From IMG/VR virus record IMGVR_UViG_3300017760_000041, positions 1 to 31,686 of that record: 31,686 nucleotides of DNA, one strand, 5' to 3'. The notes under the pieces are model-generated. The model searched no databases and was not told the origin of the DNA. It saw nothing but the letters and a program-made list of their open reading frames with translations. Numbering within the stretch: position 1 is the first letter of the stretch; the number at the start of each line of letters is the position of its first letter. A program made the position numbers and the translations under genes. The DNA is from a virus. This document shows positions 27,301 through 28,864 of this stretch, one piece after another.

Positions 27301-27417
27301 AATGTACTATTTTGAACCCTGTTGTCTGTGACATACGCCTCGTCAGCTAAAGCTGGTGAGTTTTGCCCCCACCCTCCGACTCTGCGAGTCTTGACTGTGT
27401 GGGTGCATACCAACGCC
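27301..27417. other. GC-rich structured spacer beside small terminase
   Basis: 117 noncoding bases with about 50% GC, against roughly 25-35% for most of the window. It contains a 9-base-pair stem with two G-T pairs, CTCGTCAGC 27339-27347 with GCTGGTGAG 27352-27360, followed by TTTT on the plus strand. A second perfect 5-base-pair stem, GACTC 27378-27382 with GAGTC 27386-27390, is nested inside CACCC 27370-27374 with GGGTG 27401-27405. It could be a regulatory leader, a processing site or part of a packaging signal. Confidence 0.5.
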
Positions 27418-27792
27418 TCACGATAGGTCTATATTAATTTTAATATCGCCCTGTATATTGTGAGAGATACGATCTGGTGCTTTTAATCCCACTCGATCTA
27501 GTATATCTCTGGACGCTTCCAGTTGTACATACTCTGATCTCGCCCCTGTTGAAAGCTCAATCAGTCGTTTACTCGCACTTACTGCACCAAGTCCAAGAGT
27601 TTGTGCCACTCTCTGTTGCATATACTGTTGTACCTTTGGTAAACGTAGTGTGCGAGAAGCACTTACTCTACCTGCCTCTTTACTGCCTTTTGTTGAATAT
27701 CCTGCCTTTTCGGCAGCTTCCTTTATACTACAACCACTTGCTACGATAGTATCAACGAGTTGTCTTTGCTTGTCTGTTAAGTCATCTTTCAT
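27418..27792 (-). CDS. terS: Terminase small subunit
   Basis: A 124-residue protein of Terminase_2-type layout. LTDKQRQLVDTIVASGCSIKEAAEKAGYS (about 5-33) is the DNA-binding helix-turn-helix start of small terminases, followed by GRVSASRTLRLPKVQQYMQQRVAQTLGLGAV and a helical oligomerisation part with SEYVQLEASRDILDRVGLKAPDR, typical of the family. It recognises the phage DNA and feeds it to the large subunit. Its GC (about 37-50% by 60-base lines) is well above the rest of the window. It is the first late gene; TTGACA on the minus strand (27845-27840) upstream could be a -35 box, but no good -10 follows. Confidence 0.8.
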   Translation of the reverse strand: MKDDLTDKQRQLVDTIVASGCSIKEAAEKAGYSTKGSKEAGRVSASRTLRLPKVQQYMQQRVAQTLGLGAVSASKRLIELSTGARSEYVQLEASRDILDRVGLKAPDRISHNIQGDIKINIDLS

Positions 27793-28155
27793 ATCTATTT
27801 ATTCTACCCTTAAAAGTACGTAGATTTAAATTTATCTGCTGTCAAGCAAAATAACAACACTTTAGTTGTTCGTGAAACTCACAATACTAAATGTAGTGGA
27901 GTCGCCAGTGGGCGACACTCTCCACCCCATACGCAATCACAAAAGATGAGATTGCTATGGGTCCCCCCACACACACGTGATTACGCTTAGACTAACAAGG
28001 AATCCCCTCTACCTATCAACAGGACTGATTGTCCACAGGGGACAATGCAGTCGCAGGTGTAAACCCCTGCCATGCTGTTGACAGGTGAGTACTCCCCTTG
28101 TTGTCTGAACAGCGTTCACGCTGATGTGGACGTTAGTCTTAACCAAGGAGGTATT
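27793..28155. other. Divergent intergenic region, GC-rich hairpin cluster
   Basis: This 363-base gap holds no gene. It separates the minus-strand late block from the plus-strand early-type block and should hold promoters for both. A minus-strand TTGACA (27845-27840) points at the small terminase. From about 27890 the GC content rises to 50-55%, and the plus strand carries stem after stem: GTGGAG/CTCCAC with TCGCC/GGCGA (27896-27925); CCCATA and GCAATC with GATTGC and TATGGG (27926-27961); CTG and ATTGTCC with GGACAAT and CAG (28025-28050); GCAGG/CCTGC (28053-28070); and two competing ones at 28074-28123. This could be a noncoding RNA, a packaging or replication site, or a structured leader. 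Confidence 0.7.
27926..27961 (+). other. 12-base-pair hairpin in divergent region
   Basis: CCCATA 27926-27931 and GCAATC 27933-27938 pair with GATTGC 27950-27955 and TATGGG 27956-27961, with one unpaired C and an 11-base loop. There is no U-run after it (GTCCCCCC follows), so it is not a terminator. It is the most stable element of the cluster. Confidence 0.6.
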
Positions 28156-28332
28156 ATGGACTATGTAAAATACTATGAGTTGATAGTTGATGACTCTAAT
28201 AAGATGAGAGTTAATGAGCTATATAGCTTAAAAGAAGAAGCTGTTGTTAAAGGTGATCAAGATAAGATTACTGAGATAAACAGCGAGTTAAATACATTAA
28301 CCAAAGGAGGTATATATGACACAAGTAAGTGA
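28156..28332 (+). CDS. Small hypothetical early protein
   Basis: Fifty-eight residues, acidic, helical (MRVNELYSLKEEAVVKGDQDKITEINSELNTL), starting MDYVKYYELIVDDSNK. I chose the ATG at 28156 because AAGGAGG lies at ideal distance. It overlaps the next gene by 17 bases. It heads the plus-strand block right after the structured region. Unrecognised; small acidic helical proteins at such sites are often host-takeover or inhibitor proteins, but nothing specific supports it here. Confidence 0.6.
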   Translation: MDYVKYYELIVDDSNKMRVNELYSLKEEAVVKGDQDKITEINSELNTLTKGGIYDTSK

Positions 28333-28819
28333 AGTACAATCTGCTGACTATTCAGATAACAGGTTAGAATCTATGCATGATGTATTAGATTCTGTTGATG
28401 TGAGAGCAGGTGTTAAAGCATTATTCAATAATGTAATTACACCATTTGCTGAACACAAAGACTGGACTATGTTAGCTGAATGGAATGCTAATAGTATCAT
28501 TGGTTGTTTCACAAGACATCTAGAACAATGCGTTGCTAGTTCTGATAAGACAAGAGATCTTATGCAGAATGCATTGAGAGAAGATGTTGGTAATGAAATA
28601 TCTATGCTAAATGTAGATAAGCTTATATTTAGACGTGATGCACAAGAGTTAAACATTAAACGTGCAGAGATGATAGTTAATGAATTACATCTAGCTTATG
28701 AAGTTGCATTTGGTAAGAAGTTTGTACCAAAAGCTAAAGCTTCAGCTAAAGATGTAACTAAACAAGCACAGATGAAAGAGTATAATCTAGCTAGATTAAA
28801 AGATGCTATGAAGAAGTAA
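28316..28819 (+). CDS. Hypothetical early protein
   Basis: A 167-residue, mostly helical protein without membrane segments. It starts MTQVSEVQSADYSDNR after AAAGGAGG, which also lies in the end of the previous gene. Centre: VKALFNNVITPFAEHKDWTMLAEWNANSIIGCFTRHLEQC. C-terminus: basic (VPKAKASAKDVTKQAQMKEYN). It ends 12 bases before a strong terminator, so these two genes form a short unit. No family is recognised; position and expression signals suggest an early function. Confidence 0.65.
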   Translation: MTQVSEVQSADYSDNRLESMHDVLDSVDVRAGVKALFNNVITPFAEHKDWTMLAEWNANSIIGCFTRHLEQCVASSDKTRDLMQNALREDVGNEISMLNVDKLIFRRDAQELNIKRAEMIVNELHLAYEVAFGKKFVPKAKASAKDVTKQAQMKEYNLARLKDAMKK

Positions 28820-28831
28820 TCTGTAAGAAAT

Positions 28832-28864
28832 CCAGCGATCTTAATTGGTCGCTGGGTTTTTTTT
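28832..28864 (+). terminator. Rho-independent terminator
   Basis: CCAGCGATC 28832-28840 pairs with GGTCGCTGG 28847-28855 (one G-T wobble, 6-base loop TTAATT), followed by GTTTTTTTT. It ends the two-gene unit 28156-28819. Confidence 0.93.

Follow-up and report, generated by a model that had tools for sequence, protein, structure and literature searches.

In a marine phage, the noncoding gap that separates terS, which encodes the terminase small subunit, from the first early gene holds a real, conserved and unannotated element, whose sequence evolves fast while its shape does not. We show here its folded structure, the covariation that maintains it, its fixed position and the exchange of its cassettes among related phages. 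The pairing appears to be a property of the DNA, and we tentatively propose that rightward early expression, replication or both start at the element. No paper describing the element was found in the literature.

The element was studied in a virus record of 31,686 bp, the whole of which was analysed and is called the window below. Late genes occupy the minus strand (2420-27792) and early genes the plus strand from 28156, and the two blocks diverge from a single gap (27793-28155) flanked by terS and early gene 1. Three zones make up this gap, namely an AT-rich stretch (27793-27894), the hairpin element (27895-28138) and then the ribosome-binding site of gene 1. The G+C content of the element is 52.5% versus 32.3% for the window, and 24-27 nt lie between its end and the start codon of gene 1 (27 nt in the window). 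The features are as follows.

27418-27792, minus strand: terS (PF03592, E 8e-11; PHROG 51)
27817-27845, minus strand: putative leftward (late) promoter of terS, outside the hairpins, with TTGACA (27845-27840), a 17-nt spacer and TACGTA (27822-27817)
27853-27870, unstranded: inverted repeat AACAAC-ACTTTA-GTTGTT, read from the sequence, in a block conserved in relatives and upstream of the putative late promoter
27897-27924, unstranded: hairpin 1 of the left module, from the fold; other hairpins take its place in relatives
27926-27961, unstranded: hairpin 2 of the left module, from the fold and alignments of relatives
27957-27977, plus strand: conserved core ATGGGTCCCCCCACACACACG joining the left and right modules; its pattern ATGGGNCCCN{3,7}ACACACG occurs in at least 119 stretches of viral contigs
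27967-28129, unstranded: right module, a branched hairpin of about 160 nt, from the fold and covariation
28156-28332, plus strand: early gene 1, 58 aa, function unassigned, an ORF with tblastn homologues in 143 loci, many overlapping
28316-28819, plus strand: early gene 2, 167 aa, predicted all-alpha, with 41 distinct homologues at identities down to 29%
28832-28864, plus strand: intrinsic terminator closing the gene 1-gene 2 unit, recognised from its sequence and used in the set of 27 RNA-hairpin controls

TerS is distantly related to the TerS proteins of the staphylococcal phages 80alpha and phi11, which are pac-type phages, and an HNH gene lies between terS and terL. The AlphaFold2 model of gene 2 is all-alpha (pLDDT 86); the gene received no Pfam or PHROG name, and its predicted structure gave no informative fold match. 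Across relatives the gene 2 family is 28-100% identical and a conserved neighbour of gene 1. A tRNA/tmRNA search found none. A second conserved structured block was seen just 3' of terS (27340-27425, reading ...CACCCACACAGTCAAGACTCGCAGAGTCGGAGGGTGGGGGCAAAA... on the minus strand), with stems that change among relatives from GACTC/GAGTC to GAATC/GATTC; it could be an RNA element of the late message ahead of HNH and terL.

An earlier note on this DNA had pointed to a cluster of stable hairpins in the divergent gap and, if anything, understated it. Positions 27897-28129 form two hairpins and one branched hairpin of about 160 nt, which together are the strongest fold in the window. The exceptional density of folding was confirmed by a 150-nt scan of the whole window, in which the top four pieces all fell here (-5.6 to -3.8 SD). 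When 27800-28160 was compared with dinucleotide shuffles, z was -7.6 for either strand folded as RNA, and -10.4 (plus) and -8.4 (minus) for DNA, with no shuffle equal to the native sequence. Hairpin 2 has the 12 pairs ascribed to it (CCCATA/TATGGG and GCAATC/GATTGC) and one bulged C; its foot, CCCATA/TATGGG, is nearly constant among relatives, while the loop and upper stem vary and loop inserts range from 0 to about 160 nt. A second named helix, given as 10 pairs at 28025-28050, was found to extend over 28024-28051 with 12 pairs and one bulge. The separate stems of the note are real, but not all are independent hairpins: those between 27967 and 28129 belong to a single long stem with a three-way junction. 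This right module comprises the long stem, a conserved 6x6 bubble (AATCCC/TACTCC), the junction at the tip and two terminal hairpins. None of the stems is followed by a U-run, as had been stated, and the G+C stem with U-run of an intrinsic terminator is thus not found in the element.

Relatives were collected with two protein searches and a pattern search of public viral contigs, giving more than 200 loci, many of them overlapping. The core pattern yielded 49 sequence clusters; ten were judged to be chance hits and dropped, and the other 39 represent distinct right modules (<93% identical). Such an element is present in more than 100 related marine contigs, solely in the gap between terS and early gene 1, and the folding pattern is always similar while the letters differ. 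In nearly all of 16 long loci scanned, the strongest or second-strongest fold lay in the gap upstream of terS; the exceptions were Hodr and locus L075, with top pieces inside or at the end of terS. Hodr (Pelagibacter phage EXVC031P, OQ414635, locus L260) is a cultured relative with a TerS 56% identical and carries an imperfect palindrome of about 450 nt over the same gap (DNA z -18.1), which extends into coding sequence. This giant palindrome lies at 11942-12635 of L260, where it covers the gap between terS and gene 22 together with portions of the two genes. Locus tags in the Hodr GenBank record read 'EXVC032PBaldr', probably through a labelling mix-up. In a test for a mobile (REP-like) repeat, motif matches elsewhere lacked the core and the fold as well as the terS/gene 1 context. 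The gap of a more distant terminase relative, Vibrio phage VA-RY-3, folds like shuffles (z -1.2), and the element is therefore not general to this terminase lineage. A TerS query returned at least 567 relatives. A search for the host was uninformative, giving no more than four MAG contigs, with TerS identities of 54-61% and mixed labels.

Covariation, which had been named as the check on the hairpin cluster, favoured a conserved structure, since the relatives do show compensatory changes. In an alignment of nine type-A sequences (A1), 96.3% of cells were paired, compared with 36-45% when partners were slid by 1-3 columns, and the covariation score was 0.265 against 0.084 ± 0.014 for shuffled and 0.013-0.082 for slid alignments. 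Both sides had changed in 14 of 48 pairs, and one-side-only variation was seen in none. A more diverse second set (A2), whose alignment is less certain, gave double changes in 12 of 39 pairs and one-sided changes in four. The element thus shows the compensatory changes preserving pairing that are looked for in a functional RNA.

The patterns of identity indicate that the element is a cassette swapped between phages. Among 310 locus pairs with terS/promoter DNA at least 90% identical, 50 share the right module (>90%) but not the left (<65%), and the reverse pattern, left shared and right differing, occurs in six. The window and locus L004 are identical over 455 nt of terS and promoter and 99% identical in gene 1, yet their modules are only 47% and 57% identical, values from plain global alignments that approximate those of unrelated sequences. 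Module exchange takes place around the conserved core.

The composition of the helices bears on whether this pairing acts in RNA or in DNA. G-U pairs account for 3.6% (plus) and 6.3% (minus) of the pairs inside element helices, and for 0 of 51 on the plus strand of the window. Internal controls came from the same phages: 27 non-redundant hairpin-plus-T-run sites lying downstream of the element, terminators in nearly every case, gave 45 of 245 (18.4%). The share was 12-16% in mononucleotide-shuffled elements and 17.6% in pieces of E. coli 6S, RNase P and rRNA, the latter a rough yardstick from fragments folded by energy alone. The difference between element and terminators (Fisher p 1e-16 for the plus and 9e-10 for the minus strand; 1.5e-4 for the plus strand of the window) is plain in size, though the p-values are too small because the element counts stem from related, non-independent sequences.

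The loops were compared in non-redundant perfect hairpins. On the minus strand, C(GNA)G accounted for 9 of 24 C-closed triloops, whereas the plus strand had none (asymmetry p 0.004), and RNA tetraloops showed no enrichment, with no UNCG and one GNRA per strand. GNA and GNNA loops with G-C closing pairs are known as hyper-stable DNA mini-hairpins (PMC4686876). A strand test based on A-C versus G-T mismatches leaned to the minus strand (21 against 3 contexts), with base composition accounting for much of this, and its pairwise version was blurred by module exchange. Rfam 15 gave no match at the gathering cut-off for the window and 18 relatives; a permissive search gave none with E <= 0.1 in six relatives and a best E of 3.8 for the element of the window. 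The earlier note had suggested a noncoding RNA as one possibility. The pairing is conserved, while RNA identity was not established, as both strands have almost no G-U pairs, few or no RNA tetraloops occur and Rfam holds no match; the tolerance of G-U pairs and one-sided changes that marks functional RNAs was not observed, apart from the four one-sided pairs of A2. From the scarcity of G-U pairs and the minus-strand GNA loops, we therefore take the pairing to be made or kept at the DNA level, probably as a cruciform or a single-strand hairpin. Pairing at this level does not by itself prove that the element works as DNA, since the trace left by template switching would be the same. Summed, the DNA-level readings are favoured as somewhat more likely than not, ahead of an RNA leader.

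Promoter signals in the gap differ between the two directions. For leftward transcription, TTGAC[AC] is present in 62 of 69 distinct relatives, with TACGTA, TACGAA or CACTAA at 17 nt, and TTGACA-17-TACGTA is probably the late promoter; the inverted repeat at 27853-27870 may be an operator, possibly for a late activator. For rightward transcription, sigma70-like plus-strand sites are not enriched in the interval between element and gene 1 (where -10 boxes show no enrichment), inside the big hairpin or left of the element, and left of the core they number 3 of 39 against 8 expected.

Expression of gene 1 requires a start site, sigma70 sites show no enrichment, and the minus strand, which bears the GNA loops, is the template, a geometry that matches the early promoters of phage N4; for these reasons a structure-dependent start site is proposed. 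Under this hypothesis, which we hold as the leading single reading though with less than even confidence, 27895-28138 would be a cis-acting DNA structure element that is extruded by supercoiling and starts rightward early expression and/or replication. The inverted repeats would be kept complementary at the DNA level, and negative supercoiling or exposure of one strand would extrude them as hairpins or cruciforms, with C(GNA)G loops stabilising the minus-strand hairpins. The extruded minus strand, which is the template for the rightward genes, would then present its bubble, junction and C-rich core as a structure-specific site at which gene 1 expression, and perhaps replication as well, begins; the TTGACA promoter beside terS would separately serve late transcription to the left. 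Against a DNA start site, the hairpins far exceed those of N4 promoters in size, a plus-strand gene 1 transcript starting further left would include the hairpins, and correction of the repeats by template switching could yield the scarcity of G-U pairs whatever form works. A reader of the structure, N4-like virion RNA polymerase or other, was not identified among the large virion proteins scanned in the window, which is part of a genome. More speculatively, and rather doubtfully, the element may belong to a new class of phage control site in which selection acts solely on a large branched DNA shape. This would be a GNA-stabilised extruded cruciform that starts early transcription and/or replication, with its sequence free and its cassettes swapped, and that is read by a yet-unrecognised structure-specific factor.

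The most serious competitor, possible but less likely, is that the gene 1-gene 2 transcript carries a structured RNA leader at its 5' end, or that an ncRNA is cut from this leader. Its transcription, along the plus strand, would start at a promoter immediately left of hairpin 1, and the RNA would act, for example, as an antiterminator, stabiliser or regulator. Such a leader fits the strong covariation and an element that stops about 27 nt before the start codon, with no promoter signal in the interval, as well as the terminator closing gene 1-gene 2. A conserved block, TTTAGT-18 nt-TACTAA, also ends where the hairpins start, but as a promoter it is far from consensus, in a place where sigma70-like sites are below chance. 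The near absence of G-U pairs, in contrast to 18% in these phages' own terminators, also argues against the leader, as do the lack of one-sided variation in A1, the RNA tetraloops at no enrichment and the empty Rfam search.

A purely mutational origin would dispense with most function: at a hot spot of replication or recombination, the hairpins would be made and perfected again by snap-back synthesis or template switching. Both the scarcity of G-U pairs and the pure double changes are what template switching yields, the Hodr palindrome enters coding sequence, modules are exchanged frequently, and inverted repeats are known to undergo conversion between their arms (PMC1803023). We consider this explanation improbable, as nearly all inspected relatives have the element with its constant core and the fixed foot of hairpin 2, the conserved unpaired bubbles should have been erased by correction, and the element occurs at this place alone.

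A packaging site (cos or pac) recognised by terminase was also weighed, since the element lies directly upstream of terS, in the position of cos in lambda, and the HNH gene sits between terS and terL. Contigs run through the gap and share no end there, contig ends being scattered (an indirect measure), so a cos-type cut, one form of the packaging site raised earlier, is not supported. Near full-length contigs break at many different positions relative to terS, which suggests permuted, headful-type DNA, and identical terS genes are paired with different elements. A cos site at the element is thus unlikely, and a packaging role in general has little probability. A conventional replication origin, with iterons and an AT-rich unwinding region, is the least probable reading: iterons are absent and the element is GC-rich, and although the divergence point coincides with the cumulative GC-skew minimum, skew follows gene direction and the two are not separable. 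In favour of such an origin, the window has no recognised polymerase gene and the early region of Hodr has no gene long enough to be one.

Two further candidates were dropped. A cruciform cut by RusA at the C-rich core was rejected, RusA being present in Hodr but not found in nine related records or the window. An attC-like GTTAGGC near the foot occurs in only some relatives with no matching partner box, and was discarded by inspection.

Marine metagenomes contain many phages of this kind, and no description of how their early genes and replication start was found in the literature. An element that keeps its shape while letters and modules change, and that belongs to no annotated family, would be a rare natural example of selection acting on DNA secondary structure. 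Comparing G-U content with that of nearby terminators offers a general means to separate DNA-level from RNA-level hairpins in sequence data.

Several known systems can be set beside the element. The cos site of lambda is a noncoding site upstream of the small terminase gene; our element resembles it in position and, unlike it, has no fixed DNA end. GOLLD and ROOL are large branched conserved folds in marine phages, and unlike these Rfam families the element has no match at any useful score and hardly any G-U pairs. In N4 early promoters, extrusion driven by gyrase exposes a hairpin of the template strand, whose 3-nt loop is stabilised by a sheared G-A pair (PMC4496689). As in these vRNAP promoters, inverted repeats lie upstream of early genes. 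The C(GNA)G triloop, enriched on the template (minus) strand across relatives, could correspond to that loop. In contrast to the short N4 stem around -11, the hairpins here are long, branched and much larger, with no conserved sequence, and no RNA polymerase family was found in the large virion proteins scanned in this partial genome. Frpo of the F plasmid is a long stable stem-loop in noncoding DNA directly ahead of early genes that acts as a single-strand promoter (PMC9849209). The element shares this form and placement, but it belongs to a dsDNA phage, and -35/-10 boxes rebuilt in its stems are not above chance (2 on the plus and 0 on the minus strand of 39 units, versus about 3 in shuffles). 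At the hairpin/cruciform of the BPP-1 DGR target, the stem matters by structure and not by sequence, and a GRNA loop is conserved (PMC3240598). The present element is larger and branched, with no variable repeat or reverse transcriptase noted, and it would share with that target a DNA hairpin whose structure is kept while its letters are free.
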